Assembly: GCF_007994075.1 (NCBI RefSeq)
Contig: NZ_VIWU01000001.1
Location: 2,480,001-2,544,000, forward strand
Length of the DNA: 64,000 nt
From: Pseudonocardia hierapolitana
GTDB lineage: Bacteria; Actinomycetota; Actinomycetes; Mycobacteriales; Pseudonocardiaceae
Direction of reading: 5' to 3'
The notes beneath the pieces are model-generated. The model was not told the DNA's origin. It was given only the letters and a program-made list of their open reading frames with translations, and made no database searches. Position 1 is the first letter of the stretch; every line of letters begins with the position of its first letter. Both the position numbers and the translations under genes were made by a program. Shown here piece by piece: positions 3,768 to 53,864 of this stretch.

Positions 3768-3768
3768 C

Positions 3769-4245: not shown

Positions 4246-4251
4246 CGCGCC

Positions 4252-4962: not shown

Positions 4963-5140
4963 GGCGACCTCCTGGAAAGCGCGCTCCGAAGGGAGCAGCC
5001 TTCCGGCGTCACTCCGCGCCGGGCAACATCACTTCCGCTGGCCGGAAGGTCCGTTGCCCGACCGTCACACCGGAGACCCATGAGGACTACGACAGCGTTG
5101 GGCGGCACGGGACGGTGCCGCGCGCGTCGGTGCCCGTTCG

Positions 5141-5965
5141 TCAGGGCTTGCGGCCCACCGCGCCGACGATGGTGTTGGAGATCGGCGGCAACGGCTTCAC
5201 GCGCGGTCCGTCCGGCCACCAGTTGCAGCAGAGCACGAGACCGGGTTCGACGAGTTCGAGCCCGGGAAGCATGCTCATGATCTGCTCGCGAGTGCGGAAC
5301 CAACCACTACCCATCGGACTGTGGAGGAATACCTCCTCCAGCCGGCGCGCAAGCGGGCTGAACTCATCGGTTTCCGGGTCGAAGAAGTGACTCAGCGCGA
5401 CATAGGAGCCCGACGGCAGCGCGTCGATGTATTCCTGCATGATCTCGGCGTACCGATCGCCGCTGTAATGGTGGATCGTTCCGCACTGGTACAGCGCGAT
5501 GGGCTCGGCGAAATCGAGGTGCTTGCGCACGACCTCGTTCTGCAGCACCGCGGCCGGGTCGAAGATGTCGGCGCCGACGAGATGGGTCTGGTCGTTCTCC
5601 TCGAGCAGCGCGCGTCCGTGCGCGAGCACCACCGGGTCGTTGTCGACGTACACGACCTTGGCCTCGGGATTGATGCGCTGCACGACCTGGTGGGTGTTCT
5701 CCGCCGTGGGCAGGCCGGAACCGCAGTCGAGGTACTGGCTGACACCGGTCTGACTGGCGATGAATCGGCTGGCCCGGATGAGGAACTCGCGGTTGTCCCA
5801 CCCGAGCTGCGTCGCCTCCGGTGCCACTTTCTGGACCCGCCGCAGGACTTCACGGTCGATCTCGTAGTTGTCCTTGCCATTCAGGAAGGCGTCGTAGACC
5901 CGCGCGACACTGGCCTTCGACACGTCGATGTAGTGCGGAACTACCTCTTCCTCGGTACTCGGCAC
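5141..5965 (-). CDS. DUF574-type SAM-dependent methyltransferase
   Basis: S-adenosyl-methionine methyltransferase of the actinobacterial DUF574 group (about 274 residues). Typical landmarks are the N-terminal PHYIDVSKASVARVYDAFLNGKDNY, given here by its core VYDAFLNGKDNY, then YLDCGSGLPTAENTHQV (motif I) and VYVDNDPVVLAHGRALL (acidic residue for the SAM ribose). GTG 5965 is preferred because GAGG lies 6 bases upstream; an ATG at 5998 is possible. It is divergent from the XRE regulator at 6189, an arrangement common in actinomycetes, where such methyltransferases accompany WhiJ-like regulators. Its methyl acceptor is unknown. Confidence 0.85.
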   Translation of the reverse strand: MPSTEEEVVPHYIDVSKASVARVYDAFLNGKDNYEIDREVLRRVQKVAPEATQLGWDNREFLIRASRFIASQTGVSQYLDCGSGLPTAENTHQVVQRINPEAKVVYVDNDPVVLAHGRALLEENDQTHLVGADIFDPAAVLQNEVVRKHLDFAEPIALYQCGTIHHYSGDRYAEIMQEYIDALPSGSYVALSHFFDPETDEFSPLARRLEEVFLHSPMGSGWFRTREQIMSMLPGLELVEPGLVLCCNWWPDGPRVKPLPPISNTIVGAVGRKP

Positions 5966-6020
5966 ACTCGCCTCACTCGGTAGATGATCACGAAGCACGG
6001 GAGTCTACGGCGGCCAGTAG

Positions 6021-6052
6021 AGTGTAGGGCAAGGACTGATCAGGTTGAACCT
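6021..6052. promoter_or_regulatory. Divergent promoter with palindrome AGGTT-G-AACCT
   Basis: Between the DUF574 gene and the XRE gene, the minus strand reads TACACT at 6026-6021 as a plausible -10 box. A near-perfect palindrome, AGGTT G AACCT (6042-6052), falls at the matching -35 position, so a repressor bound there would block the methyltransferase promoter. The site is inferred from symmetry only. Confidence 0.4.
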
Positions 6053-6188
6053 CGGACGTGAGCCTCCACTTGTCGTTCTCTCCGTGTACGGTCATCGTCC
6101 AGCAGAGTGCCGGCCCTGCTCGTTCTGCCATCAGCGGGAAGTGGGGAGGGCCTGAGAACACGGGCCGGAAGTCCGCGAGGAGGAGCAG

Positions 6189-7082
6189 ATGGCGGAGGGT
6201 GGCCGCTCCGAACAGAGTTCCGTTCTGCCCGCCGAGGTCCGCGGTGTCACAGCGCGCCGCATCGTGCTCGGCACCCAGTTGCGCAGGCTGCGCGAGAACG
6301 CCGGCATCTCCCGCGCGGACGCCGGCTACATGATCAGGGCGTCGGACTCCAAGGTCTCCCGCCTCGAGCTCGGCCGGGTCGCGTTCAAGGAACGTGACGT
6401 CGCCGACCTGCTCACCATGTACGGCATCAGTGACCCCGAGGAGCGCGAGCAGTTCCTCGCTATGGTCCGCAAGGCCAACGAGCCCGGCTGGTGGCGCCGC
6501 TACACCGACGTCATCCCGAGCTGGTTCCAGGAGTTCGTCGGACTCGAGGAGTCGGCGAGCCGGATCCACACCTACGAGCTGCAGTTCGTGCCCGGCCTGC
6601 TGCAGACCGAGGATTACGTGCGCGCGGTGCTCACCCGGGGCCGGCCCGACTACGCTCCGCCCGACACGGAGAAGCGGATCCACCTGCGCATGCAGCGCCA
6701 AGCGCTGATCACCGGCCCGAACCCGCCGAGGTACTGGGCGGTCGTCGACGAGTCGGTGCTCCATCGTCCGATCGGTGGCCGGCGGGTACTGAGGGAGCAG
6801 CTCAAGTTCCTGCTCGAGCAGTCGAAGCAGCCACACGTCACCATCCAGGTCGTGCCCAACCAGCTCAGCGGCTACGCCGCGGAGAGCCCGTTCCAGTTGC
6901 TCCGGTTCGCCGAGCCCGAACTCCCGGACGTCGTGTACATCGAGCACCTCGGCGGAGCCGTCATGCTCGACGGCGTCGAGGAGATCGAGATCTTCAGTCG
7001 CGCACTCGACCGGCTCACCGTCGACGCCGAGACGCCGGACCGCTCTCGCCAGATCCTCGCGAAGGCCATCGCCGAGCTCTGA
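6189..7082 (+). CDS. XRE-family HTH regulator with DUF5753 (WhiJ-like)
   Basis: Regulator of 297 residues. Residues about 25-80 form the Cro/CI helix-turn-helix (LGTQLRRLRENAGISRADAG, then SDSKVSRLELGRV); the remainder is the DUF5753 sensor region (WFQEFVGLEESASRIHTYEL, FVPGLLQTEDYVRAVL). Actinomycetes carry many such proteins, each usually beside a DUF397 partner, as in the WhiJ family of Streptomyces developmental regulators. GAGGAG lies 6 bases before ATG 6189. It converges with a DUF397 gene at 7152-7388 and diverges from a DUF574 methyltransferase, so the three form one regulatory unit. Confidence 0.9.
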   Translation: MAEGGRSEQSSVLPAEVRGVTARRIVLGTQLRRLRENAGISRADAGYMIRASDSKVSRLELGRVAFKERDVADLLTMYGISDPEEREQFLAMVRKANEPGWWRRYTDVIPSWFQEFVGLEESASRIHTYELQFVPGLLQTEDYVRAVLTRGRPDYAPPDTEKRIHLRMQRQALITGPNPPRYWAVVDESVLHRPIGGRRVLREQLKFLLEQSKQPHVTIQVVPNQLSGYAAESPFQLLRFAEPELPDVVYIEHLGGAVMLDGVEEIEIFSRALDRLTVDAETPDRSRQILAKAIAEL

Positions 7083-7102
7083 TCGGGTGCAGGCACACCG
7101 AC

Positions 7103-7127
7103 GCCCGGCGTGGAGTCCACGCCGGGC
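7103..7127. terminator. Terminator hairpin
   Basis: GCCCGGCGTGG (7103-7113) pairs with CCACGCCGGGC (7117-7127) across a 3-base loop. It separates the convergent XRE and DUF397 genes. Confidence 0.8.
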
Positions 7128-7151
7128 GGGCTGACTTCTGCTGCGGGACGG

Positions 7152-7388
7152 TCAGTGAGCTGGGCGGTCGCCGAACTCGCCGTGCCAGGCGCCCTGGAGG
7201 AACGCCGACCACTCCTCGGGAGTGAACACGAGCGCGGGGCCTGCCGGCTGGCGCGAGTGGCGCACGGCCACCTCTCCGCCGTCCAGCATCGCGACCTCCA
7301 CGCAGGCGTGCTGCCCGCTGAACGTGCTCTTGTGCCAGTGCGCACCTTCGATCTGCTGCGCCGGCACCACGATGCGATCGTTCCCCAT
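7152..7388 (-). CDS. DUF397 domain protein
   Basis: A 78-residue DUF397 protein, the usual small partner of XRE-DUF5753 regulators. The family signature is visible: HWHKSTFSGQHACVEVAML, then VAVRHSRQPAGPALVFTPEEW and SAFLQGAWHGEFG. In known pairs the two proteins act antagonistically. ATG 7388 has AAGGGTG about 7 bases upstream; the longer in-frame N-terminus is not DUF397-like. The gene ends near the terminator shared with the XRE gene, and its upstream region carries a striking cluster of TGCACGTGCA palindromes. Confidence 0.88.
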   Translation of the reverse strand: MGNDRIVVPAQQIEGAHWHKSTFSGQHACVEVAMLDGGEVAVRHSRQPAGPALVFTPEEWSAFLQGAWHGEFGDRPAH

Positions 7389-7429
7389 CTTGATCACCCT
7401 TCGGGGTCGACTATCGGCGGATGCGTCCG

Positions 7430-7659
7430 ACGGTAGCAGCTTGCATCTGCACGTGCATATGGCGTGAGCACCTGCAGTCCGCAAACGCGGGCGGAGTTCC
7501 TCCGATCGAGTGCGCCTGATCAGGGCTTGTTTCCTGCACCCCGTACTCGTCGCGCCGTACGTTCGCGCCCCACTGATCACCTGCGCGGCCATGCAGGCGG
7601 AAACTGCATGCGCAGATGCACGTGCATTCGTGCACGTGCAAGAGCGGGTTGCATCTGCA
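7430..7659. promoter_or_regulatory. Operator cluster: three TGCACGTGCA palindromes upstream of DUF397
   Basis: Exact 10-bp palindromes TGCACGTGCA occur at 7448-7457, 7617-7626 and 7631-7640, and TTGCATCTGCA occurs at 7441-7451 and 7649-7659. On the minus strand TACCGT (7435-7430) is a plausible -10 box for the DUF397 gene, and the first palindrome covers the matching -35. I infer that this is the binding region of the neighbouring XRE regulator. No gene is supported in 7389-7889. Confidence 0.5.
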
Positions 7660-7940
7660 GCCCGTAACCGGCACACTGCTCTGTGTGTCCGGGATCTCAC
7701 GCAGCGGAGCCCGACACGGCTCAGGGGAACGGGCGGCACGAGTCGCCTGACTAGCGCTCCGGGCTCGTCGTTCCAGGGTCGCACCAGACCCGGACGGTCG
7801 GCGGCACCAATGAGCACGGAGCGTCTACCGGCGAGAGGAGCAGCGGTGTTGCGGGGAACAGCGAGGGGGAGCTCGCGAGCAGGTCAGCGGTGCGGATGTG
7901 CAGCACGGCCGGCAGGCCACTGCAGCCCCCGGCTCGCGTG

Positions 7941-8180
7941 ATGGGGTCGCCTCCGGTGGCCCGGGAGCCGAGCGACCAGATCCACAGCATCGCCGAGGTC
8001 CTCGCAGCGACGTTCACCTCGTCGGCGGTGCGCCACATCCTTGCCGAGCACAGCCCCGATGCCACGGGGCACTGCCGCGGCTGCCGCCTCCCCACCACGG
8101 TCGCCCCCGTCTGGCCATGCCGCCTCTGGGAGATCGGCAAGGAGATGGAGCGGCTGCGCGCAGCGGGCGGGCGCCGCTAG
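7941..8180 (+). CDS. Small CxxC/Cys-containing hypothetical protein
   Basis: A 79-residue ORF with a helical middle (SDQIHSIAEVLAATFTSS) and a Cys-rich end, GHCRGCRLPTTVAPVWPCRLWE, in which CxxC plus a third Cys and nearby His could bind zinc. Proteins of this style occur near XRE/DUF397 loci in actinomycetes, but I cannot name a function. The start is uncertain: ATG 7941 is given, GTG 7890 and ATG 7896 are in frame, and none has a good ribosome binding site. Confidence 0.5.
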   Translation: MGSPPVAREPSDQIHSIAEVLAATFTSSAVRHILAEHSPDATGHCRGCRLPTTVAPVWPCRLWEIGKEMERLRAAGGRR

Positions 8181-8287
8181 CGGCATCCGCCCTCCAGGAC
8201 CCGGCGGCGGGCGTCCTCAGAGGGCGCTCGTCGTCGGCCTCGACGATCGATTCGAACGCTGCGCCCGGTCGCGACGTGTACACGTCC

Positions 8288-8554
8288 ATGACGCTCTGGA
8301 TCCTCGGCGTTCTCGGAGCCTGGTGCGCGTTGGCCGTGCCGACGGCGCTCCTGGTCGGCGCCGTGGTCGAGCGCCGTGACGCTCACCGCGTGCCGGAAAC
8401 CGCCCACGCGCGTGCGGACAAGGTGATCGACCCGTCGCCCGCAACGGGAAGGCGCTCGCCCATCAGCGTGTGCAGCGCGGCGCGCCGGTCCTCGTCGAGC
8501 GTGGCGACGAACGCGGGTGCGGGGCCCTGCCCGCCGAGGAAGGGCGTCCAGTAG
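8288..8554 (+). CDS. Possible tiny membrane protein (doubtful)
   Basis: ATG 8288 opens an ORF whose first 30 residues form a convincing membrane helix (MTLWILGVLGAWCALAVPTA, then LLVGAVVERRD). After that it becomes Ser/Arg-rich and runs 172 bases antisense into the end of the methyltransferase at 8383-9174, which suggests a lost stop codon or a shadow. The short helical part may be real; the tail probably is not. Confidence 0.25.
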   Translation: MTLWILGVLGAWCALAVPTALLVGAVVERRDAHRVPETAHARADKVIDPSPATGRRSPISVCSAARRSSSSVATNAGAGPCPPRKGVQ

Positions 8555-9174
8555 TCGTCGAGGTCCCGGAACCGGGTGGGCACCTCGATCGGCTCGACCT
8601 CGACACCGGTGAGGCCTGCGCCGGTCCAGAGGGTGTGCAATGGCTCGGGCCGGCACAGCGGGAAGCGGCGCGCCTCGTCCAGCCGGGCCGCAGCGGGGTC
8701 GAGGGCGGTCGCGGCGTCCCAGAAGAGCCGGATCATCTGCATCCCGTCGGCGTAGTCCCACAGGTAGGCGCCCACCACACCGCCCGGCGCCACCACCCTC
8801 GCCAGCTCCTCGGCCGCGTCCTCCGGCTCGGGGACGAAGTTGAGCACCAGCCCGCTCACCGCGGCGTCGAACCGGGCCTCGGGGAACGGCAGTGCGCGGG
8901 CGTCGCCCACCGCGAACCGGGCCCGAGGGTCGTCGGTGTCCCGGCGCGCGTGGGCGAGGAAGCCCTCCGAGGAATCGACGCCGTGCACGGCGGCCGGATC
9001 GCCCTTGCGCAGGACCGCGGACGTCAGGGCTCCGGTGCCGCAGCCGACGTCCAGCCACCTCCGGCCGGCCGGCACGCCCAGGCGCCGCACGAACACATCG
9101 GCCACATCGCGGCTCCACCGGCCGACGTAGCGCTCGTACGCCTCGCCGACGTTCCAGACCTCGGATGCGCTCAT
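8383..9174 (-). CDS. Class I SAM-dependent methyltransferase
   Basis: A 263-residue methyltransferase of the Methyltransf_11/UbiE type. Motif I is WLDVGCGTGALTSAVL (about residue 40), followed by VHGVDSSEGFLAHAR, the acidic FAVGDARALPFPEARFDAAV, and a post-motif VVAPGGVVGAYLWDY. ATG 9174 matches the family start (MSASEVWNVGEAYERYVGRW); an ATG at 9207 is in frame. It is on the same strand as, and 170 bases downstream of, the polytopic membrane protein at 9345-10919. The substrate is unknown. Confidence 0.85.
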   Translation of the reverse strand: MSASEVWNVGEAYERYVGRWSRDVADVFVRRLGVPAGRRWLDVGCGTGALTSAVLRKGDPAAVHGVDSSEGFLAHARRDTDDPRARFAVGDARALPFPEARFDAAVSGLVLNFVPEPEDAAEELARVVAPGGVVGAYLWDYADGMQMIRLFWDAATALDPAAARLDEARRFPLCRPEPLHTLWTGAGLTGVEVEPIEVPTRFRDLDDYWTPFLGGQGPAPAFVATLDEDRRAALHTLMGERLPVAGDGSITLSARAWAVSGTR

Positions 9175-9344
9175 GGCTTGCCCAAGGTACGCGCGAAGCT
9201 CGGTCATCAGCTGAAAGTCGTCGCGCAGCAGCCGATCGCGCGCCACATCGGCACCGTGCGACCGAGCTCGGCGGACTTGATCAGCTGGGTCGCGGGCCCC
9301 TTCGCGCGTGCCGCCGGCGGCCGACGACATGGCAGCGGTGGCGT

Positions 9345-10919
9345 TCACGGGCTGCGCCGGAGGATCGTGTAGCCCTCGCCGTGCGCGATCGGCCGGTACG
9401 CCGGCGCGAGTTCCCGCTCGATGCCCGCCAGATCGGACGGGCACGCGATCGCCTCCACGTACGGGTGGTCGGCGGCCATGGGCAGCACCGCGCCTGGCAC
9501 CTCCGACAGCGTGGGGGCGAGGACGGTCATGCCACCCCCGGTGGGCCCGTCGGCACGGACGATGGAGGTCTCCTCGACGTTGACCCTTGCCTGCCCGGTC
9601 TCGATCGCGTGGTCGACGCCGAACCACTTGAGCACCGGCACCCCGACCGACAACCCGGGCGCGGCCTCGCAGCCGTAGCGGGAGGGGACCGTCAGGTACG
9701 CCAGCGGCGCACCGGCCGGGACGGCGGCATCGGTGGCCGCGTCCACCCGCGCGATCCGGTGGCCGACGTCGACGTACTCGGCGACGTGCAGGCCGAGGAC
9801 GGCCACCACCAGCAGCCCTGTCACCCCGGTCACGGCGGGACGGACGGCGCGGTAGGGCGGTGAAACCCGGTGAGGCAGGGCCGCGACGGCGAGCAGCAGC
9901 GCGGGCATCACGAACCGCTCGTCGGGCTTGATCAGGTCGTTGACCATGCTGACGGGCAGCACCAGCGCGATCCCGGCGAGCAGGCCGGCGAGCCAGAGCA
10001 CCGGCCTGTCCTCCACGGCGGCACGCAGCGCGGACCGGTCGAGCTGGAAACCCACGAGCGCCACGAACGCCACCGCGAGCAGCAGGTTGACCCAGAAGAT
10101 GGGGAACACCGGCGGGAACGGGTCGAGCCGCAGGAAGAACTGGAGCGTCTCGGTGAGGGAGATCGCTTTGTCGAACCAGGACGAGTAGAGGACGACGCCG
10201 GTCCCTCCCCGTTCGGCCAGCACGTACCACGCGGCCAGCACGACGCCTGGCAGGAGCGTGCCGAGCAGGAGCAGGGCCCGGCGGCCTCGGCCCGTCCGCG
10301 CCAGGACGAGTGCGTGGACGAGGAGGGCCAGCACACCGATCCCCCACGCCAGCAGGTGTGACAGGTAGAGCACGAGGCCGAGGACGCCCAGCAGCAGCAG
10401 GCTCCTGCGGTCCGGCCCGCTCGGATCGGCGACCGCCCGGTGCAGCACGGCGACGAGGACGAACACGAGGGCGAGCCCGACCAGGAAGCTGAGGTAGCCC
10501 TTGTAGAGGTAGAACCCCGGCGCCCAGAGGAAGCCGAGGTACTCGACCGCAGTGGGCCTGCCCTGGAGGGTGCGCACGAGATACCCGAAGGAGGCGGCGA
10601 AGCCGAGCACGGCGAGGACGAGGAAGAGCTGCCCGGCGGCCTCGATCGGCAGGAGCACGTTGAGCGCGCCGATCCCGACCGGGGCGGCGAGGTTGGGCAC
10701 CGGCACGGGATCGAGCGAGTACACGCGGGCGAAGCCCGCGGAGTCGCGGTCCGTCCCGAACAGCAGATCGGACACCACGTGACCTTGGAAGAGCCACTGG
10801 TAGTAGTCGTAGAACGGGAGGAAGTGCGAGCTGTAGAGCGTGCCCACCGTGGCCGCGGCCAGGACGAGCCAGATCACCGCCCCGTCGGAGCGGGTGGCGG
10901 AGCGGACCGACATCGGCAT
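9345..10919 (-). CDS. Polytopic membrane protein, glycosyltransferase-like architecture
   Basis: A 524-residue protein with about ten to eleven predicted membrane helices over the first 400 residues and a soluble C-terminal part of about 110 residues. The layout, with a loop FLPFYDYYQWLFQGH after the first helix and a C-terminal extracytoplasmic segment, resembles C-superfamily (GT-C/PMT-like) membrane glycosyltransferases and related uncharacterised proteins, but I see no decisive catalytic motif. Treat the enzyme idea as speculation. The start at 10919 is ATG, with an in-frame ATG (MSV) two codons later. Confidence 0.75.
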   Translation of the reverse strand: MPMSVRSATRSDGAVIWLVLAAATVGTLYSSHFLPFYDYYQWLFQGHVVSDLLFGTDRDSAGFARVYSLDPVPVPNLAAPVGIGALNVLLPIEAAGQLFLVLAVLGFAASFGYLVRTLQGRPTAVEYLGFLWAPGFYLYKGYLSFLVGLALVFVLVAVLHRAVADPSGPDRRSLLLLGVLGLVLYLSHLLAWGIGVLALLVHALVLARTGRGRRALLLLGTLLPGVVLAAWYVLAERGGTGVVLYSSWFDKAISLTETLQFFLRLDPFPPVFPIFWVNLLLAVAFVALVGFQLDRSALRAAVEDRPVLWLAGLLAGIALVLPVSMVNDLIKPDERFVMPALLLAVAALPHRVSPPYRAVRPAVTGVTGLLVVAVLGLHVAEYVDVGHRIARVDAATDAAVPAGAPLAYLTVPSRYGCEAAPGLSVGVPVLKWFGVDHAIETGQARVNVEETSIVRADGPTGGGMTVLAPTLSEVPGAVLPMAADHPYVEAIACPSDLAGIERELAPAYRPIAHGEGYTILRRSP

Positions 10920-10975
10920 CCCGGCATGGTCCGTCCGGGCCGCTGTGGATTCGCTGAACCCTCAGTCGAGCGCGG

Positions 10976-11743
10976 TCACAGCGACTTCAGCATCCCGCCG
11001 TCGATCACCAGCTCCGAACCGCTCATGTTCCGAACGCGGCCCGAGGCGAGGAAGACCACGAGGGCGGCGACCTCCTCGGGCTCGGTGAGCCGTGACGTGG
11101 ACAGGCCGAGCACGTCGGGAAGCTCGTCCTGGAAGGCGTCGGGGGTCGATCCGGCCCGTCGTGCCAGCATGTCGCCGGGCCCTCCTGGCCGGGTCCACAC
11201 GTCGGTCCGCACCGGGCCGGGCAGGACCGTGTTGACCCGCACGCCGCGACCGCCGAACTCCTCCGCCAGCGCCTTGCCCAGGTTCGCGAGCGCGGCCTTG
11301 GCCGCGGACTGGGCCACCAGGCGCGGCTGCGCCAGCCGCGAGTTCACCGAGCCGATGTTGACGACGGCGCCGCGACGTTCGATCAGGCTCGGCAGCGCCG
11401 AACGCGTGGCGCGAACGGCCGACATGAAGGTCGCGTCGAAGGTGTACCGCCACGCCGCGTCGTCGAGCTCGAGGAATCCGCCGGTCGGGAACGAGGCTCC
11501 CGCCACGTTGTTGACGAGCAGGTCGATGCCGCCGTGCTCGCCCTGCGCCCACCCGATCAGCCGCTCCGGACCACCGGCCGCGGCGAGATCGACCTGCAGC
11601 ACGTGAGGCGTCGCCCGGCGCAGGGCCTCTGTGGGGGTCCGCGCTCCCGCGATCACGGTGTACCCGTCGTCGGCCAACGCCCGCACGATCGCAAGCCCGA
11701 TGCCCCTGCCCGCGCCGGTGACGACTGCTGTGCGCTCCGCCAT
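10976..11743 (-). CDS. SDR-family oxidoreductase, catalytic Tyr missing
   Basis: Short-chain dehydrogenase/reductase of 255 residues with the nucleotide motif TGAGRGIGLAIV at residues 10-21, NNVAG, and a C-terminal SGSELVIDGGMLKSL. At the YxxxK position the sequence is QSAAK (in RLVAQSAAKAALANLG), so the usual catalytic Tyr is replaced by Gln. This suggests an altered activity or a binding role. It is divergent from the HxlR regulator at 11830, which probably controls it. Confidence 0.88.
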   Translation of the reverse strand: MAERTAVVTGAGRGIGLAIVRALADDGYTVIAGARTPTEALRRATPHVLQVDLAAAGGPERLIGWAQGEHGGIDLLVNNVAGASFPTGGFLELDDAAWRYTFDATFMSAVRATRSALPSLIERRGAVVNIGSVNSRLAQPRLVAQSAAKAALANLGKALAEEFGGRGVRVNTVLPGPVRTDVWTRPGGPGDMLARRAGSTPDAFQDELPDVLGLSTSRLTEPEEVAALVVFLASGRVRNMSGSELVIDGGMLKSL

Positions 11744-11785
11744 GTGAGTGCTCCCCCGTCGAGATCGTCCGATCTGAGCGAGACG

Positions 11786-11824
11786 GTAGTGACGAGGGTG
11801 GTTACCGATCGGATACTACGATCG
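11786..11824. promoter_or_regulatory. Candidate HxlR operator between divergent SDR and regulator
   Basis: Two symmetries overlap here: GTAGT (11786-11790) with ACTAC (11815-11819), and CGATCG (11806-11811) with CGATCG (11819-11824). They lie in the 86-base gap between the SDR start and the HxlR start. HxlR-family proteins bind short TACT/AGTA-type inverted repeats, so autoregulation plus control of the SDR is plausible. Confidence 0.4.
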
Positions 11825-11829
11825 ACGCC

Positions 11830-12225
11830 GTGCCCGAGCCGCTCACGTCGGACATGTTCGACCCGGTGTGCCCCTCCGATCTCACGCCGTTCCGTCTCGG
11901 CGACAAGTGGACGCCGTTGGTGCTGCGGTGCCTCGAAGGTGGCCCACGCCGGTTCTCGGAGCTCCGGCCGGCGCTGCCCGCCGCCAGCGCGAAGGCGGTC
12001 AGCAAGTCGCTCCGGCTGCTGGCGCGCGACGGCCTGGTGAGCCGGGCGGAACACCCTGGCCCGCCCCGGCGGGTGGAGTACGAGCTCACGCCGCTGGGAC
12101 GCAGCCTGATGGAACCCATCGCGGCCATCCGGGCCTGGACCGCCGAGCACTGGGACGAGCTGATCGACGCCCGCGAGGCCGGACAGGCGGGCCGGCGGGA
12201 TGCGAACCAGGTCGCCGGCGCCTAG
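11830..12225 (+). CDS. HxlR-family winged-helix regulator
   Basis: A 131-residue HxlR-type transcription factor: LGDKWTPLVLRCLEGGPRRF, SELRPALPAASAKAVSKSL (recognition helix region), then wing RVEYELTPLGRSLMEPI. Family members sense reactive electrophiles, aldehydes or oxidants, often through an N-terminal Cys; here PVCPSDL near residue 13 offers one. GTG 11830 is taken as the start. The stop codon TAG at 12223-12225 lies inside the CTAG that flanks the 161-bp foldback element, so the C-terminal end may have been set by that insertion. Confidence 0.88.
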   Translation: MPEPLTSDMFDPVCPSDLTPFRLGDKWTPLVLRCLEGGPRRFSELRPALPAASAKAVSKSLRLLARDGLVSRAEHPGPPRRVEYELTPLGRSLMEPIAAIRAWTAEHWDELIDAREAGQAGRRDANQVAGA

Positions 12226-12386
12226 GAGGGTCCTGAACAACTCCGGCCGTAGCGAGCGGCGTCCAGGTGGTGCCATCGCAAGGCGGACGATCGGGCCGAT
12301 ACTGCTGTTGTATCGGTGCGATCGTCCAACGCGGCGAGGGCGCCGCCTGGGCGACGCGCAGTAGGTCGGAGTTGTTCAGGGCGCTC
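12226..12386. mobile_element. 161-bp foldback MITE-like element with CTAG duplication
   Basis: The whole spacer between two convergent genes is one imperfect palindrome. CCTGAACAACTCCG near the left end is matched exactly by CGGAGTTGTTCAGG near the right end, and the centre has GGACGATCG/CGATCGTCC and CCGATAC/GTATCGG around a 7-base loop. It is flanked on both sides by CTAG (12222-12225 and 12387-12390), a 4-bp YTAR-type duplication as made by IS5-group transposases. No coding capacity. It may also act as a terminator. Confidence 0.65.
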
Positions 12387-13181
12387 CTAGCGCGCCCCCG
12401 CGAGGTGGCGTCGGAACCACGCGGTCAGGCCGGCGTCCACCTCGCGCGCCAGTGGTAGTTGCGGCGCGGGCTCGATGCCGGGCTCGTCGGCGAGCGGGTG
12501 CGCCAGCCCGGGGATCGACAGGAGTTCGGACCGGTCCCCCAACGCGTCGACGAGCTGCAACGCGTCGGCCCGCAGGCCCGGATGATCCAGCTCGCCGCTG
12601 ACGACCAGCAGCGGCGCGCGACCCGCGATGGCGTCAGCCTCGGCGACGAAGTCCAGGCTGTCGACGACCTCCTCGGACTCGGCGTCGTACGGGTAGTCGC
12701 CGAACAGGGCGATGACGGACCGCAGCCGGATGGCACCGTTGACGACCGCGCCCGCGAAGACCGGGACATCGGTGCCTACGAGGATCCGCAGCGCGACGGC
12801 CGCGCCCAGCGAGCCGCCGAGCACGCCGATCGGGCCGTCGTCGACCGGCAGCTGCGCACGGATCGACTCCAGCGCGGCCGGGAACTCCTCGACCGCCTGC
12901 CGGACGATCGGGTACAGCGCGGCCATCAGGGGATCCTTGCGGAGCAGCTCCAGGCCGGCGTCCATGCTGCCGCCGACCATGCGCGCCCCGCACATCGGCA
13001 TGCCGAGGTGCACCCGCCACGCGGGCACGTCGTTCATCGGCAACGCGGAAGCGAACGCGGCATCCGACCTGGGCGCGTCCAGCATGTGCCAGGTGACGAT
13101 CAGCGGCGCCGGGCCGCCGTCGGCCGGCGGCAGCGCGGTGAACGGCACGCCTGCGGCGGTGCCCGTGATCGGTGAGACCAT
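12387..13181 (-). CDS. Alpha/beta hydrolase (dienelactone-hydrolase-like)
   Basis: A 264-residue hydrolase with nucleophile elbow GVLGGSLGAAVALR (Ser about residue 120), an Asp in VVSGELDHPG, and the His in IPGLAHPLADEP. An oxyanion strand LIVTWHMLDAPRSDAAF follows the N-terminus. Substrate unknown. The start at 13181 is ATG. Its stop codon TAG is formed from the CTAG at 12387-12390 that borders the foldback element, mirror-image to the HxlR gene on the other side. Confidence 0.82.
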   Translation of the reverse strand: MVSPITGTAAGVPFTALPPADGGPAPLIVTWHMLDAPRSDAAFASALPMNDVPAWRVHLGMPMCGARMVGGSMDAGLELLRKDPLMAALYPIVRQAVEEFPAALESIRAQLPVDDGPIGVLGGSLGAAVALRILVGTDVPVFAGAVVNGAIRLRSVIALFGDYPYDAESEEVVDSLDFVAEADAIAGRAPLLVVSGELDHPGLRADALQLVDALGDRSELLSIPGLAHPLADEPGIEPAPQLPLAREVDAGLTAWFRRHLAGAR

Positions 13182-13271
13182 GCGGCGACGGTAGGTCCGC
13201 GGCGGCCCCGCGCGGAATCGGTTACGCCACCAGCGGAATCAGGCGGGCCCGGCCGAGCCGGTCGGGTCACG

Positions 13272-13289
13272 CCCGGTGGGATTCGAACC
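13272..13289. repeat. 18-bp tRNA T-arm fragment, possible distal att site
   Basis: The 18 bases CCCGGTGGGATTCGAACC are identical, in the same orientation, to 24569-24586 inside the tRNA gene. No complete tRNA can be folded here. A direct repeat of a tRNA 3' part about 11 kb from the tRNA is what an integrase att duplication leaves. Confidence 0.5.
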
Positions 13290-13318
13290 GACGGCACGAT
13301 TGCTCAGGAGGTGAACCC

Positions 13319-14254
13319 GTGGAGATCCGCACGAAGGAGACGCTCACCGCGGCCATCCGTGCGCACGGGCGGACCGCGCTGGTCGTCAACGTCCGGTCTC
13401 GCCGGGGGCGCAGGCACTTCTCGGAGGTCCGGGACCGGTTGCAGGCCGCCGGTCTGGACCTGATGGCCGTTTGGCCGGTCAGCGATCCCGCCCGCCTGCC
13501 GCACACCCTCGCCTCGGCGGCGAGCTGCGGCGCCGACCTGGTCGTGGTCGGTGGTGGGGACGGCACCCTGAGCGAAGCCAGCCATCAGCTCGCGCATCGC
13601 GACGTCTGCCTCGGCGTGCTGCCGTTGGGGACCACCAACAACTTCGCCCGCAGCCTCGGCCTGCCGCTGAACCTGTCCAAGGCGTTGCGGACCCTCACGG
13701 AGGGCAAGGTGGCCGATGTGGATCTCGGCCACGTTGCGGGTCGCCATTTCGCCAACCTGACGAGCCTCGGGCTGTCGGTCCTGGTCGCCGAGCACGTCCC
13801 GCACCGCCTCAAACGCATCCTCGGCCGGGCCGCCTACCCGCTGACCGCCCTGGCGCTGCTACCGCGCCACCAGCCGTTCTCGGCGCGGCTGACGGTGGAC
13901 GGCAAGCTGTACGAGCTGGCCACCCACCAGCTCAACATCGCCAACGGCAGCTTCCACGCCGGTCGTGCGATCGCCGCCGACGCCGGCGTCGACGACCGGC
14001 TGCTCGTCGTCTACCGGCTCGGCGACGCCAACCGGCTCCGCCTCACCGCCGCGACGGTGCGCCAGGCCGTCCTCGGGCCGTACCGTGCGCTCGCCCGTAC
14101 GCCGTTCCTGACCGCCGACAGGTTGTCGCTGGAAACCGACCCGCCGCTCGACCTGGACATCGACGGCGAGATCCGCGGGCGCACGCCCGTAGAGATCCAC
14201 CTGGAGGCGAACGCCCTGCGCGTCATGGTCAACCCCTCCTTCCGGGACATGTGA
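13319..14254 (+). CDS. Diacylglycerol/lipid kinase (DAGK_cat, YegS-like)
   Basis: A 311-residue lipid kinase of the DagK/YegS/BmrU family, which phosphorylates diacylglycerol or related lipids with ATP at the membrane. Seen: NVRSRRGRRHFSEV at the N-terminus, the ATP-binding VVVGGGDGTLSEASH, the family motif LPLGTTNNFARSLGLP, and a late DIDGEIRGRTPVEIHL. GTG 13319 is preceded by AGGAGG 8 bases upstream, which decides the start; upstream in-frame residues are read-through of a tRNA-like fragment. It converges on an AraC gene with a hairpin between. Confidence 0.9.
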   Translation: MEIRTKETLTAAIRAHGRTALVVNVRSRRGRRHFSEVRDRLQAAGLDLMAVWPVSDPARLPHTLASAASCGADLVVVGGGDGTLSEASHQLAHRDVCLGVLPLGTTNNFARSLGLPLNLSKALRTLTEGKVADVDLGHVAGRHFANLTSLGLSVLVAEHVPHRLKRILGRAAYPLTALALLPRHQPFSARLTVDGKLYELATHQLNIANGSFHAGRAIAADAGVDDRLLVVYRLGDANRLRLTAATVRQAVLGPYRALARTPFLTADRLSLETDPPLDLDIDGEIRGRTPVEIHLEANALRVMVNPSFRDM

Positions 14255-24564: not shown

Positions 24565-24638
24565 TGCCCCCGGTGGGATTCGAACCCACACTGTGACCCT
24601 TTTAAGGGGCCTGCCTCTGCCGGTTGGGCCACGGGGGC
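24565..24638 (-). tRNA. tRNA with UAA anticodon (Leu?), class I shape
   Basis: On the minus strand a 74-base cloverleaf folds: acceptor GCCCCCG/CGGGGGC (7 perfect pairs), D arm GCCC/AGGC, anticodon stem GGCCC/GGGTC, loop CTTAAAA, variable loop ACAGT, T arm GTGGG/CCCAC with loop TTCGAAT, discriminator A. No CCA is encoded. The anticodon reads UAA, that is Leu UUA, but the 5-base variable loop is class I, whereas bacterial tRNA-Leu is class II with a long arm. The identity is therefore uncertain. Confidence 0.8.
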
Positions 24639-48230: not shown

Positions 48231-48358
48231 GTCGGAGGACCCTCGCAAGGCAGGAGAAGCGCACGCAGAACAGACCCCTGCCCCGGACGTCCCCCAGGGT
48301 GGGGCCTCCATCCAGACTACGCCCGCGGTCTCACCGCCCGCTGGCAGTATCGATCGCC

Positions 48359-49150
48359 ATGACCGACCTGTCGAAGCTGCCGCCGGTCGACCCAGCCGTC
48401 CCGAACGCCGCCCGCATGTACGACTACTTCCTGGGCGGCTCCCACAACTTCGCGGCCGATCGGGCAGCCGTCGAACGCACCATCGCCGTCATGCCGTTCG
48501 CGGCGCAGGTGATCCACGCGAACCGGTACTTCCTGGGGCGGGCCGTGCGGTTCTGCGCGCGGGAGGGGATCGACCAGTTCCTCGACCTCGGATCCGGCAT
48601 CCCGACGGTCGGCAACGTCCACGAGGCGGCCCGGGCCGTCGATCCGGCGGCGCGGGTGGCCTACGTCGACAACGAGCTGGTCACCGTCGCCTCAGCCGCC
48701 GCGCTGCTCGACGGTGACCCGCTCGCCACGATCACCGCGGCGGACCTGCGGGAACCCGACGCCGTGTTCGAGGCACCCGGCGTGCGCGAGCTCCTCGACC
48801 TGTCCCGCCCCGTGGCGCTGCTGACGGTCTCCGTGCTGCAGTTCGTGCACGACGACGACGAGGCCGCAGCCATCGTGGAGCAGTACCGCGGTCGGCTGGT
48901 GCCGGGCAGCATGCACGTGCTGTCCCACGTGACGGGCGACCACGACAGGACCGAGCTCACGGCGGCCGAGGACGTGTACCGCAGCACCGCCAACCCCGGA
49001 CGGCTCCGCTCCCGCGAGCAGGTCGCCGCCCTCCTGGCCGGCCTCGAGCTCGAGGAGCCGGGGATCGTGGACGTCACCGAGTGGCGCCCGGACGACACGG
49101 CGGGCAGGCAGCACCGGGGGATGTGGGCCGCCGTCGGGCGCATCCGTTAG
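48359..49150 (+). CDS. DUF574 SAM-dependent methyltransferase, tandem copy 1
   Basis: A 263-residue DUF574-type methyltransferase with [40 protein letters not shown] (motif I) and [18 protein letters not shown]. Divergent from mfd. The next gene, 36 bases on, is a close paralogue with the same first eight residues (MTDLSKLP). ATG 48359 lacks a ribosome site; a weak CAGTAT -10 box ends 8 bases before it. Confidence 0.9.
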
Positions 49151-49186: not shown

Positions 49187-49978
49187 ATGACCGACCTGTC
49201 GAAGCTGCCGGCCGTCGACCCCGAGGTGCCCAACGCCGCCCGGATGTACGACTACTACCTGGGCGGCTCGCACAACTTCGCCGCCGACCGCGCCGCGGCC
49301 GAGCGGGTCAAGGCGGCGATCCCCTACGCCGTGGACGTCGCGCGGGCCAACCGGTTCTTCCTGCACCGCGCCGTGCGGTTCTGCATCGGAGAAGGCCTCG
49401 ACCAGTTCCTCGACCTCGGCTCCGGCATCCCGACGGTCGGCAACGTCCACGAGATCGCGCGGAACCTCGGCTCCCGGGCGCGGGTCGCCTACATCGACAA
49501 CGAGCCGGTCACCGTCGCCTCTGCGGCGGCCCTGCTGGAGGACGACCCGCTGGCCACCATCACGATGGCCGACATCCGCGACCCCGACGCCGTCTTCGCC
49601 GCTCCCGGCGTCCGCGATCTGCTCGACCTCTCCCGTCCGGTCGCCCTGCTCACCGTCGCCGCGCTCCCCTTCATCCCCGACGAGGACGACCCCGTGGGGC
49701 TCGCGCAGCGCTACCGCAGCCGGCTCGCGCCCGGCAGCATCCACGTCCTCTCGCACGGCACGGCCGACCACGACCCCGCCGAGCTGCGCGCCCTCGGCGA
49801 CGTCTACCGCAACACCGCGAACCCCGTGACGCTCCGCACCCGGGACGTGGTCGCCGACATGCTGCGCGACACCGAACTGGTGGAGCCCGGCCTCGTGGAC
49901 GCGACGGAGTGGCGCCCGGAGGACACGATCGGCGACCAGCACCGTGGCATATGGGCGGCGGTCGGCTGCATCCGCTGA
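49187..49978 (+). CDS. DUF574 SAM-dependent methyltransferase, tandem copy 2
   Basis: A 263-residue paralogue of the preceding gene, sharing [20 protein letters not shown] and [20 protein letters not shown], and a conserved end QHRGIWAAVGCIR. A tandem duplication that has diverged in the acceptor-side half, suggesting related but distinct targets. A third, more distant DUF574 gene is at 5141-5965. No regulator of the XRE type is beside this pair. Confidence 0.9.
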   Translation: MTDLSKLPAVDPEVPNAARMYDYYLGGSHNFAADRAAAERVKAAIPYAVDVARANRFFLHRAVRFCIGEGLDQFLDLGSGIPTVGNVHEIARNLGSRARVAYIDNEPVTVASAAALLEDDPLATITMADIRDPDAVFAAPGVRDLLDLSRPVALLTVAALPFIPDEDDPVGLAQRYRSRLAPGSIHVLSHGTADHDPAELRALGDVYRNTANPVTLRTRDVVADMLRDTELVEPGLVDATEWRPEDTIGDQHRGIWAAVGCIR

Positions 49979-50317: not shown

Positions 50318-50424
50318 CGACGCCCGCCCTGCTGACGCGTGATCTGCAGCCGCGCCTCCGCCTCGTCCGGTGCCTCACCCATCGCGAACCCGCCCCCCGG
50401 TAGCTCCGTCATCCATAACGCCAT
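50314..50424 (-). CDS. Leaderless micro-ORF with a TTA codon (36 aa)
   Basis: ATG 50424 opens a 36-codon ORF (MALWMTELPGGGFAMGEAPD, then EAEARLQITRQQ). A -10 box TAGTCT (50436-50431 on the minus strand) ends 6 bases before it, as for a leaderless start; an internal ATG at 50412 is the alternative. The third codon is TTA, rare in GC-rich actinomycetes and read by the bldA-type tRNA. The stop overlaps the next ORF. Real but unproven. Confidence 0.4.
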   Translation of the reverse strand: MALWMTELPGGGFAMGEAPDEAEARLQITRQQGGRR

Positions 50425-50507
50425 ACCTGCAGACTAAGCCAAATCGGAAATGTGCGCTATCTCTGATAGCCCTGACACAAGGGCTGAGCAGGACAGACTC
50501 GCCGACG

Positions 50508-50513
50508 TACCGT
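50508..50513 (+). promoter_or_regulatory. -10 box TACCGT, leaderless BldC-like gene
   Basis: TACCGT ends 6 bases before GTG 50520; TGAGCA at 50485-50490 is a weak -35 with a 17-base spacer. Confidence 0.45.
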
Positions 50514-50519
50514 CCAGAC

Positions 50520-50708
50520 GTGGCGGCGGATCGACTCCTGACCACGGGCCAGCTGGCCCGCGAGTTGGGGCTCCATGCCCGATCGATCGCGCGATGGGCG
50601 CAGGAGGGGCAGCTGAAGCCCACACTCGTCACCCCGGGCGGTCAGTACCGGTGGGAGCTGGAGGACGTCCGGGAGCAGCTACGGCAGCTCCGGAAGCGGT
50701 CGGACTGA
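50520..50708 (+). CDS. BldC-like MerR-type HTH protein, copy 1
   Basis: A 62-residue single-domain DNA-binding protein. LLTTGQLARELGLHARSIAR, then WAQEGQLKPTLVTPGGQYRW follows the helix-turn-helix plus wing of BldC and excisionase-like MerR proteins (compare the order HTH, WAKAGKL, GGHRRY in BldC). No effector domain. GTG 50520 has a -10 box upstream but no ribosome site. It is followed 6 bases later by a paralogue, so the two could form homo- or heteromers on DNA. Confidence 0.75.
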   Translation: MAADRLLTTGQLARELGLHARSIARWAQEGQLKPTLVTPGGQYRWELEDVREQLRQLRKRSD

Positions 50709-50909: not shown

Positions 50910-51031
50910 CCGCACTTCCTCCGGACCGGCCGCCGAGCTGCCGGCTTGGCAGCTTCATCAACCGGTAACGCTCGAAGCGATCGCCTGCAACAGCGCGTGC
51001 GTGTACTGATCCGCGACTCACACACGTGAGG

Positions 51032-51137
51032 CGCGTCTAGGGTTCCGCTCCGCTCGACGGGGGTCTGGTCCGAGAGACGCAGGCGGCCACGCGCGACGGC
51101 CGCCCCACGGCGGGACAAAAGCCCGGGAGACAGCTGG
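51032..51137 (+). promoter_or_regulatory. Guanidine-I (ykkC) riboswitch
   Basis: The conserved blocks of the ykkC/guanidine-I aptamer occur in order: CTAGGGTTCCG (51037-51047), CTGGTCCGAGAGA (51065-51077), a variable GGCGGCC/GGCCGCC stem (51082-51103), and ACGGCGGGACAAAAGCCCGG (51107-51126) with GGAGA. Downstream a hairpin CGGTCGG/CCGACCG (51157-51173) lies just before the ribosome site GAGGAG, a possible expression platform. It would switch on the ureohydrolase when free guanidine is present. Confidence 0.93.
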
Positions 51138-51186
51138 TGGTACCGGCTGCTCCGCGGTCGGTGCCCCCGACCGTGAGGAGCCTTCC

Positions 51187-52344
51187 GTGCACTACCACCC
51201 CCGACTCCCCGATCAGACCCCGGACGGCCCGGAGCTGCACGAGAACTACGGGCCGGAGGCCGCGTTCGCCGTCCGCGCCGAGGCGGGCCTGCCGACCACC
51301 AAGTGGGAGGAGGAGATCGCCCGCGGCCTGGAGCTGGGTCTCCCCGGCGCCGACTCGATCGTCGACAGGCGCATCCCGACGTTCTCCCGGGGCGAGCTGC
51401 CGCACTTCGCCGGGATCAACACGTTCCTCAAGGCCCCGTACGTCGAGGACGTCCGCCGCTGCGGCGAGTACGACGTGGCCGTGCTCGGCGCCCCGTTCGA
51501 CGGCGGCACGACCTACCGCTCGGGCACCCGGTTCGGCCCGCAGGGCATCCGCAAGATCTCCGCGCTGTACGGCCCGTACAGCTTCGAGCTGGGCGTCGAC
51601 CTGCGGGAGTCGATCACGATCGGCGACCTGGGCGACGTCTTCACGATCCCCGGCAACATCGAGAAGACCTTCGACCAGATCAGCAAGGCCGTCTCGCACG
51701 TCTACGCGTCCGGCGCGTTCCCGGTGGTGCTCGGCGGCGACCACTCGATCGGCTACCCCACCGTCCGCGGTGTCGCACCGCACCTGAACGGCGGCAACCT
51801 CGGAATCATCCACTTCGACCGCCACGTCGACACCCAGGAGACCGACCTCGACGAGCGGATGCACACCACGCCGTGGTTCCACGCCACGGACATCCCGAAC
51901 GTGCCGGCGAAGAACCTCGTGCAGATCGGCATCGGCGGCTGGCAGGCCCCGCGACCGGGCGTGCAGGTCGGACGCGAGCGCGGCACGACGATCATGACCG
52001 TCACCGACTGCGTCGAGATGGGCATCGAGGAGGCCGCGCAGCGCGCCCTCGACGTGGCGTGGGACGGGGCCGACGCCGTGTGGCTGTCGTTCGACGTCGA
52101 CTGCCTGGACGCCGCGTTCGTGCCCGGCACCGGCTGGCCGGAGCCCGGCGGTTTCCTACCCCGCGAGGTCCTGAAGTTCATCCAGATCATCGCCGACGCC
52201 CGCCCGCTCGCCGGGATCGAGGTCGTCGAGTGCTCCCCGCCCTACGACAACGCCGAGATCACGTCGCTGATCGCCACCCGCGTCATCTGCGACACCCTCG
52301 GCTGCCTGGTGCGGTCCGGCCATCTCCCCCGCCGCACGTCCTGA
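51187..52344 (+). CDS. gdmH: Agmatinase-family ureohydrolase, probable guanidine hydrolase
   Basis: A 385-residue ureohydrolase, about 75 residues longer than classic agmatinases because of an N-terminal extension that ends in PHFAGINTFLKAPYVEDVRR. Metal-binding motifs are intact: GGDHSIGYPT, HFDRHVDTQE (DxHxD), and SFDVDCLDAAFVPGTGWPEP. The extension, the length and the guanidine-I riboswitch upstream match the Ni-dependent guanidine hydrolases described from cyanobacteria and others; guanidine would give urea and ammonia. Annotation as agmatinase is the conservative alternative. GAGGAG precedes GTG 51187 by 7 bases. The HypA/HypB-like Ni chaperones found beside some such genes are not here. 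Confidence 0.85.
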   Translation: MHYHPRLPDQTPDGPELHENYGPEAAFAVRAEAGLPTTKWEEEIARGLELGLPGADSIVDRRIPTFSRGELPHFAGINTFLKAPYVEDVRRCGEYDVAVLGAPFDGGTTYRSGTRFGPQGIRKISALYGPYSFELGVDLRESITIGDLGDVFTIPGNIEKTFDQISKAVSHVYASGAFPVVLGGDHSIGYPTVRGVAPHLNGGNLGIIHFDRHVDTQETDLDERMHTTPWFHATDIPNVPAKNLVQIGIGGWQAPRPGVQVGRERGTTIMTVTDCVEMGIEEAAQRALDVAWDGADAVWLSFDVDCLDAAFVPGTGWPEPGGFLPREVLKFIQIIADARPLAGIEVVECSPPYDNAEITSLIATRVICDTLGCLVRSGHLPRRTS

Positions 52345-52388
52345 TCTCCCCCAGTCCTCAGGCACGTCCCACCAGCCCGGGAGCCACC

Positions 52389-53864
52389 ATGATCATCCTC
52401 GGCGTCGCGATCAGCGTCCTCGTCGTGCTCGTCGTCGGACTCGCCGTCGCCCGCAAGGTCGACGGCGACAGCACCAACTTCCTCGTCGCAGGCCGTTCGC
52501 TGGCCCTGCCGCTCTCGGCGGCGGGCCTCATGGGCCAGGCCGTCGACTCCAACGCCACCCTCGGCAACACGGACCTGTCCGCGAGCCTCGGGTTCTGGGC
52601 GGGCGCGTCGCTGCCGCTCGGTCTCGGCCTGTGCCTGCTGCTCACCGGCATCTTCTTCGCCAAACCGATGAACCGCATGGGCCTGCTCAGCCTGCCCGAC
52701 TTCTACCGGCGGAAGTACGGGCGCGGGGTCGAGCTCGTCGCGTCCGTCCTCATGATCTTCAGCTTCTGCATCCTGCTCGCCGGCAACCTGGTGGCGGGCG
52801 GGTTCCTGTTCGAGCGCTTCCTCGGCACCAGCTACACCGTCGGCGTGCTGCTGATCGTCGGCGTCGTGCTCGCGTACACGATCACCGGCGGCATGTTCAG
52901 CGACGCCTACACGGCGTTCATCCAGATGGTGATCACGGTGATCGGCTCGGCGGCCCTGCTGATCTGGGTGGCCGTGAGCTACGGGATCACGATCCCGGAG
53001 GGCATGGGCCCGTTCGACCTCGGCCAGCTCACCGACCCGGCGCAGGGCGCCCCGATCAACTGGGCCACGCTCGTCGCGCTCGGCATCGGCGACATCGTCG
53101 CCATCGACTTCATGCAGCGCATCTTCTCCGCGAAGTCGCCCGAGACGGCGCGGCGCGCGTGCTTCGTCGGGGCTGCGGGCACGGCGGTCGTCGGCATCCC
53201 CTACGCGCTCGTGGCGCTCTCCAGCGGCGCGATCCTCTCCGGTCCGGCCGACGGCCCGGTGCTGTTCGCCCTGCTGGAGGGCTACGCCCCGGCCATCCTG
53301 ACGATCCTCGTGCTGTCGGCGATCGTCGCCGCCTCGTGCTCGACGGCCAACGGCGTCATCCTCGGCACGGCGTGCGTGGCCGTCCGCAACATCGCCGGGC
53401 TGGAACAGCAGGCCGATCCGAGCGGCGGGCGCGACCCGCTGCTGCGGCGCGTGCGGTTCACGATGCCGCTCGTGGTGGGTATCGCGATCTTCTTCGCGCT
53501 GCGGGTGCCCGAGACCGGCATCCTGCTCACCCTGGCGTTCGACCTCATGCTCGCCGGGCTCGTGGTGCCGTTCGTGCTCGGCCACTGGTGGCCCGCCGGG
53601 GTCACGACGGCTGCGGCCGCGGCGTCGATCGGCGTGGGCGTGGTGCTGCGGCTGGTGCTCTTCGCCCTGACCCCGACGTTCTACGGCGTCGAGAACACCC
53701 TGCTCCACGTCCCCAACGAGGTGTTCGGCCCTGGTTTCGACGGCTGGCCGACGCTGATCTGCCCCGTCGTGTCCCTCGGGGTGTTCGTGGCGGTGGCAGT
53801 ACTGGTGCCGCGTCGGGAGAGCGCGCTGGCCGAGCGGGCGGCCGTGGTGGCCGTCGAGCCGTAG
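52389..53864 (+). CDS. Sodium:solute symporter family transporter
   Basis: A 491-residue SSS-family membrane protein with about 13 helices. Family traits: FLVAGRSLALPLSAAGLMGQ near the N-terminus and the SSS signature region GGMFSDAYTAFIQMVITVIG. It starts 44 bases after the ureohydrolase stop with no terminator between, so it should share the guanidine-responsive mRNA. I infer import of guanidine or a guanidino compound; substrate specificity cannot be read from the sequence. Confidence 0.9.
   Translation: MIILGVAISVLVVLVVGLAVARKVDGDSTNFLVAGRSLALPLSAAGLMGQAVDSNATLGNTDLSASLGFWAGASLPLGLGLCLLLTGIFFAKPMNRMGLLSLPDFYRRKYGRGVELVASVLMIFSFCILLAGNLVAGGFLFERFLGTSYTVGVLLIVGVVLAYTITGGMFSDAYTAFIQMVITVIGSAALLIWVAVSYGITIPEGMGPFDLGQLTDPAQGAPINWATLVALGIGDIVAIDFMQRIFSAKSPETARRACFVGAAGTAVVGIPYALVALSSGAILSGPADGPVLFALLEGYAPAILTILVLSAIVAASCSTANGVILGTACVAVRNIAGLEQQADPSGGRDPLLRRVRFTMPLVVGIAIFFALRVPETGILLTLAFDLMLAGLVVPFVLGHWWPAGVTTAAAAASIGVGVVLRLVLFALTPTFYGVENTLLHVPNEVFGPGFDGWPTLICPVVSLGVFVAVAVLVPRRESALAERAAVVAVEP

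Follow-up and report, generated by a model that had tools for sequence, protein, structure and literature searches.

How guanidine is brought into bacterial cells is the question raised by this locus. The use of guanidine by bacteria is established, but its route of entry is not, and PMC12508155 (2025), which like the other papers cited here is represented by excerpts of its text, reports that there have been no studies of potential guanidine importers. The guanidine importers named in the excerpted literature are ABC and APC-type candidates (PMC11410670, PMC12186494, PMC12508155). In the excerpts of these three papers and of PMC12342949, PMC11018352, PMC8390497, PMC12625717 and PMC7266159, all from the open-licence literature, no solute:sodium symporter (SSS) protein tied to guanidine was found. 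The window analysed here, a stretch of 64,000 nt from Pseudonocardia hierapolitana, contains the following features:

51026–51131, + strand: guanidine-I riboswitch aptamer, matching RF00442 over the whole model, with paired changes across 24 aptamers
51187–52344 (GTG start to stop), + strand: guanidinase of the GdmH type, Arginase family PF00491, 385 aa, assigned from structure matches, cut-offs and residues
52380–52383, + strand: GGAG, the likely ribosome site of the symporter gene as judged from the sequence, lying in the gap 52345–52388
52389–53864 (ATG to stop), + strand: SSS protein of 491 aa, candidate Na+/guanidinium importer on the basis of PF00474, linkage, and predicted model and fold

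We consider it probable that these features form a guanidine-inducible nitrogen-scavenging operon, in which the SSS protein would serve as a Na+/guanidinium importer. Intracellular guanidine would bind the aptamer, leading to expression of the guanidinase and the transporter; the transporter would bring in guanidinium together with Na+, the guanidinase would convert guanidine to urea and ammonium, and the resulting urea would be split by a urease encoded elsewhere in the genome. The aptamer class and the enzyme family are already known, and the symporter is the new part: on comparative evidence it appears to import guanidinium, and its family was not found tied to guanidine in the searched literature. 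The question of import becomes directly testable on a single protein for which one substrate is strongly indicated, a cation site can be proposed and a switch responding to guanidine is at hand. If the reading is true, a clade that so far carries just the general label solute:Na+ symporter could be named after its function.

The guanidine-I aptamer

A guanidine-I (ykkC) aptamer upstream of a ureohydrolase had been proposed in the first-pass annotation, and the proposal was confirmed by a covariance-model search over the 64-kb window, in which RF00442 matched along model positions 1–107 of 107 with 80.8 bits (gathering score, 63; E = 8.5e-13). RF00442 was the sole Rfam family with E<=1 between 50950 and 51250. 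The start first proposed, 51032, was placed 6 nt too far downstream, the aptamer beginning at 51026. The covariation alignment comprised 24 of the 27 aptamers above the cut-off, three near copies being excluded; the Rfam structure laid on these 24 showed changes on both sides in 17 of 28 pairs and 89.8 % of cells paired, compared with 30–50 % in slid controls, and none of 500 shuffles matched any of the five measures of covariation. The stretch is assigned by this comparison to the guanidine-I class and is expected to bind guanidine. From its end to the guanidinase start there are 55 nt.

The guanidinase

The ureohydrolase has the 385 residues attributed to it previously. Among solved structures it is matched best by 9FEK, the guanidinase of Nitrospira inopinata (749 bits), followed by Synechocystis GdmH (7ESR/7OI1, 567 bits) and then proclavaminate amidinohydrolase (178). 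A guanidinase should have T105, H222 and W313 (N. inopinata numbering), according to the excerpted text of Palatinszky et al. (PMC11410670), which also lists H182, D207, H209, D211, D299, D301 and E344. In the window enzyme the required Thr, His and Trp are present as T109, H226 and W317, and the seven metal ligands all occur at +4, so that all ten published metal and substrate residues were found. An agmatinase identity was rejected on curated cut-offs and residues, the scores falling short for both TIGR01230 (159.8 vs 174.3 bits) and NF002564 (206.8 vs 302). These comparisons bear out the original preference for a guanidine hydrolase over an agmatinase; the enzyme is classified as a guanidinase, with guanidine hydrolysis as its predicted activity and Ni as its predicted metal. 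Over the loci retrieved, 84 ureohydrolase rows were scored, many of which repeat a single genome, and all ten residues were present in 70; seven rows were without the Trp (L039, L042, L146, L161, L163, L178 and L180), and the remaining seven were cut or split, with some positions unreadable.

The locus had also been described as a self-contained guanidine-use operon. The importer part of that description is supported by linkage (see below), but its self-containment has to be qualified, since urea requires a urease and the two matches to urease PF00449 lie elsewhere in the genome. A search of the whole genome for HypA gave 0 matches. Ni chaperones are absent around the comammox riboswitch as well, according to the excerpt of Palatinszky et al. 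(PMC11410670).

The symporter protein

The second gene had been read as a sodium symporter 44 bases downstream of the enzyme; the gap is indeed 44 nt, and the protein belongs to the SSS family with 75.7 bits for PF00474 (cut-off, 22.8). The TIGR00813 superfamily cut-off was not reached (83.2 vs 184 bits), and the scores are far under the NCBIfam cut-offs for PanF and PutP. The closest named relatives are in Pseudonocardia, and the window's own genome contains 17 PF00474 stretches. The predicted model (pLDDT 83.3, pTM 0.85, with residues 56–63 under 50) has the SSS fold, as the first 38 Foldseek matches are SSS proteins by title. The nearest solved fold is that of CHT1 (SLC5A7, the high-affinity choline transporter), with a TM-score by query length of 0.79–0.81 for the top two matches and 22 % identity; next come SGLT, the sialic acid symporter and NIS, with DUR3 at rank 32 and lower. 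CHT1 carries an organic cation, choline, as the candidate would, but its sequence is distant, and in the related chain 9rws the positions aligned with 53 and 235 do not show the clade's Asp residues.

Four Asp residues distinguish the clade. Among 87 symporters, D53 and D62 are each conserved in 87, D235 in 85 and D240 in 86, and the eight alignable paralogues of the window's genome have Asp at 53, 62 and 235 in none and at 240 in one. In the model, D53 and D62 flank the break in TM1, and D235 and D240 that in TM6, the two breaks being the place where SSS proteins bind substrate. S318 and T319, which we take to be Na2-site residues, are invariant in the clade. Coupling to Na+ is assumed by analogy with the SSS family.

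Neighbouring pathways and the transport substrate

A scan of named genomes yielded 183 confirmed symporter relatives, and the best 80 of these (58–85 % identical, together with one archaeal protein at 56 %) were taken for locus analysis, in which gene calling was crude and the pathway counts come from tblastn. In these best 80 loci a guanidinase is nearby in 28, of which 22 have an aptamer detected by our own model R1; guanidine carboxylase with UAAP1/UAAP2 (CgdAB-type, NCBIfam) is present in 45, one locus at the end of a contig shows UAAP only, and six have neither pathway. The guanidinase type was found in Pseudonocardiaceae, Micromonosporaceae, Mycobacteriaceae and Streptosporangiaceae, and the carboxylase type in Nocardiaceae, Cellulomonadaceae, Glycomycetaceae, Microbacteriaceae and Streptomycetaceae. 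A TetR-type neighbour accompanies 43 of the 45 carboxylase loci; the idea that these loci also carry the aptamer was rejected, R1 giving no match at E<=0.1 in any of the 45.

The residue at K. lactis position 1330 discriminates guanidine carboxylase (Asp) from urea carboxylase (Asn) in the excerpted accounts (PMC11410670, PMC12186494). This position, placed via alignments in which K. lactis shows Asn, could be read in 40 of the 45 loci, every one of which has Asp there, and the second required Asp (1584), readable in 37 of the 40, is present in all 37. The test does discriminate, because L219 and L221 carry Asn at 1330.

These partners bear on whether the symporter could be a DUR3-like urea transporter, which would import urea or recover that made by the guanidinase. 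The SSS family includes DUR3, which shares the fold and is present among the fold matches, and in L183–L186, L070, L094 and the archaeal L146 a urease is encoded no more than a few kb away from the symporter. The DUR3 matches nevertheless rank behind four other SSS types, at TM-scores by query length of 0.58–0.69 (five rows listed) and 14–18 % identity, and the aptamer ahead of the symporter is of a guanidine-sensing class. Moreover, 45 of the best 80 loci pair the symporter with the carboxylase route, which yields no urea (PMC12186494, in excerpt), and the carboxylases that could be read are of the guanidine, not the urea, type. The DUR3 reading is not preferred because of these 45 loci, and with guanidine the compound common to both partner pathways, we regard urea import as quite unlikely. 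What speaks for the importer reading is that the symporter is linked to two guanidine pathways with no relation to each other and that it can stand directly behind guanidine-I aptamers. Against it stand the six of the best 80 loci in which neither pathway is nearby, and the eight of 15 guanidinase genomes that are without the symporter (see below).

Among the six loci, the genomes of L117, L119, L139 and L140 have an Asp-type carboxylase elsewhere, and the draft genome of L134 has only an Asn-type carboxylase. In the sixth, the Halobacteriales MAG L146, no complete carboxylase and no close guanidinase were found, and its symporter lies near a urease and a ureohydrolase that lacks the Trp typical of guanidinases, so that nearer the clade's root the range of substrates may be wider. 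The same archaeal relative speaks for a symporter that imports a larger guanidino compound, from which guanidine is then released, or accepts various small cations; the use of methylguanidine is also known in a guanidine carboxylase operon, in the excerpt of PMC12508155. In the window, however, no guanidine-releasing enzyme lies between transporter and guanidinase, and the partners common across the clade act on guanidine itself, so we consider this alternative unlikely and retain import of guanidinium as the preferred reading.

Distribution and exchange of partners

In a sample of 396 genomes drawn evenly from the phylum (symporter at E<=1e-60, guanidinase at E<=1e-80, with the first 3–4 candidates of each genome scored), the symporter was found in eight genomes, the guanidinase in 15 and both in seven. 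The co-occurrence has a hypergeometric probability of 1.8e-10, a value in which kinship is not accounted for. In all seven genomes with both, the genes are side by side and the aptamer is present; in the eighth symporter genome, carboxylase, CgdAB-type genes and TetR adjoin. The sample overlaps with the best 80 loci, the L181 symporter being identical to that of L081 and the L185 symporter to that of L094. The weakest listed symporter match among the at most three candidates scored per genome, at 8.3e-169, is far from the cut-off, and this gap suggests a separate clade. That the symporter always accompanies the guanidinase was rejected, as eight of the 15 guanidinase genomes are without it; G315 is the sole one of the 15 whose form is without the signature Trp.

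In some relatives an APC permease or an NMT1-type ABC protein occupies the place of the symporter. Nine aptamers precede a guanidinase in Pseudonocardia (the window, L030, L031, L033, L034, L035, L037, L038 and L046), and in the seven of these nine loci where the gene behind the guanidinase could be assigned it is a carrier: this symporter in five, an APC permease in L034 and an NMT1-type ABC protein in L035, the last being found in the symporter slot of L175 as well. It is as if different carrier types filled one slot. A tree of 87 transporters and two outgroups on very long branches, of the quick kind with no bootstrap, requires six changes of the carboxylase label (five forced by well-supported branches) and five of the guanidinase label (four so forced), and from these changes the transporter seems to have been re-paired with its partner pathways several times.

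Many targets of guanidine riboswitches are SMR exporters (PMC12186494, in excerpt), and the symporter might likewise export guanidine, or be a mere neighbour with no role in its use. Such a reading is highly improbable given the repeated pairing with two unrelated degradation pathways, the direct placement behind aptamers and the inward operation expected of a Na+ symporter.

Comparison with known systems

A close parallel to the proposed importer operon is the riboswitch/APC permease/guanidinase operon of N. inopinata, as excerpted from PMC11410670. The two share the aptamer class, and the enzyme of N. inopinata is the closest solved guanidinase; in both, a single transporter rather than an ABC transporter accompanies the guanidinase, the urease is encoded elsewhere and no Ni chaperone is nearby. 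They differ in that an APC-type permease precedes the enzyme in N. inopinata, whereas an SSS protein (PF00474) follows it in the window. Synechocystis GdmH (Sll1077) is likewise a guanidinase under a guanidine-I riboswitch, but its operon contains an ABC importer and Ni-loading proteins in the excerpted description (PMC12186494), and by the bit scores above the enzyme is more distant from that of the window. The carboxylase operons of Raoultella, Klebsiella and Vreelandella (PMC12186494, PMC12508155, in excerpt) also combine riboswitch-linked guanidine import and breakdown, and their pathway is the one that partners the symporter in the 45 carboxylase loci, but their importers are ABC, not SSS. 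The actinobacterial SSS/carboxylase loci differ from those operons in the missing R1 aptamer match and in the TetR-type neighbour.

Leaders and the expression platform

Of the 22 loci with an aptamer, 16 have the transporter as their first gene, 24–54 nt 3′ of the aptamer. The guanidinase is on the opposite strand in 15 of these 16, and in 13 of the 15 the next called gene past the transporter is likewise encoded on the opposite strand; with such neighbours, the transporter would seem to be the only gene under the aptamer's control. Leaders were compared in these 15 opposite-strand loci and in L182. CUCC stands immediately 3′ of the aptamer GGAG in 14 of the 16, and a GGAG starts 10–15 nt 5′ of the ATG in 15, L137 having no ATG at that place. 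The best stem is an 8-bp pairing with arms of the GGAG-N-CUCC type in 12 leaders (not shown by L120, L121, L138 and L182); in nine of the 12 no GGAG lies closer to the start than the second one of this stem, L112, L115 and L122 having a further GGAG nearer the ATG. This pattern in related sequences is consistent with switching at the ribosome site: without guanidine the hairpin would hide the site, and with guanidine the aptamer would retain its GGAG, half of the pairs would be lost and the site would open. Guanidine-I switches are usually transcriptional, according to the excerpt of PMC12186494.

We lean towards a broader proposal for the whole clade, namely that these SSS proteins are dedicated Na+/guanidinium importers, associated with guanidinase through the guanidine-I riboswitch and with guanidine carboxylase in a setting of TetR-type genes; that the cation is read by Asp residues specific to the clade, next to the breaks in TM1 and TM6; and that in loci of the Mycobacteriaceae type the riboswitch acts translationally on the transporter's ribosome site.

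The leader of the window's operon, in which the guanidinase comes first, contains two predicted hairpins:

51126–51153, + strand: hairpin A, expression platform, in which by folding the GGAG at the aptamer's 3′ end and the bases after it pair with a segment whose last four bases are CUCC (51150–51153)
51150–51180, + strand: hairpin B, the alternative, in which by folding without the aptamer GGGAG the CUCC pairs with the Shine–Dalgarno GGAG (51177–51180)

A hairpin beginning in the aptamer GGGAG was found in 11 of 17 folded leaders, being absent in L030, L032, L035, L042, L043 and L046, and hairpin B is retained in only part of the relatives. The CUCC could mask the Shine–Dalgarno GGAG because the guanidine-bound aptamer would keep its own GGAG. 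On this simple reading of the predicted folds, guanidine would release the CUCC, which could then block the ribosome site, the reverse of what induction requires. Folding and comparison with relatives did not yield a clean ON-switch model for this leader; hairpin A might terminate transcription despite having no U-run behind it, or other contacts might decide. A sigma-70 promoter scan found none. Two terminator-like sites, compared with 0.9 expected, were detected, both within the symporter gene.

Urease genes beside the guanidinase and symporter

The pair of guanidinase and SSS symporter genes was found with urease genes at most a few kilobases away in the comparison loci L183, L184, L185 and L186, as well as in L070 and L094 (L185 and L094 being the same in sequence), an arrangement that would place the entire route to ammonium in one locus. 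A relative of the symporter (56% identical) encoded in a Halobacteriales MAG (L146, about 3284-13475) also lies close to urease and ureohydrolase genes, and in this ureohydrolase the guanidinase signature Trp is replaced by Glu.

Other guanidine-I aptamers

Additional Pseudonocardia guanidine-I aptamers were identified in genomes G022 and G034 (loci L039, L042 and L043). Those of L039 and L042 are accompanied by an oligopeptide-type ABC transporter with its binding protein and by a ureohydrolase lacking the guanidinase Trp. A 2OG-Fe(II) oxygenase is encoded near those of L039 and L043.

Guanidine-I aptamers scoring above the cut-off were also present in L032, L040 and L045 (genomes G010, G038 and G053), beside genes for an APC permease, a UAAP/DUF1989-type protein and allophanate hydrolase. 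These loci additionally encode a urea-carboxylase-like protein that is matched only over its carboxyltransferase half (CT_A_B, CT_C_D) and that carries Met at the 1330 place (K. lactis numbering), which is Asp in guanidine-type and Asn in urea-type carboxylases. In L032 and L045, Pfam detected no biotin-carboxylase part in this protein, and the set perhaps represents a biotin-carboxylase-less variant of the pathway.

Weak matches to the RF00442 model, which reach 35-40 bits and fall short of its gathering score (63), occur repeatedly within the genus, in L017, L018, L019, L026, L027 and L029 as well as in the window's own genome, where the next gene encodes an EamA transporter:

L025:1501-1641 (C1:8310660-8310800), weak RF00442 match

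Such matches may correspond to a variant ykkC aptamer.

Other features of the window

48299-49150 and 49187-49978, two adjacent genes encoding PF04672 proteins (S-adenosyl methyltransferase family)
50370-50708, same strand as the aptamer and about 320 nt upstream of it, gene for a small HTH_17/MerR-type protein
24565-24638, (-) strand, tRNA gene (Rfam match)

Besides the aptamer, this tRNA gene was the only Rfam match in the window.
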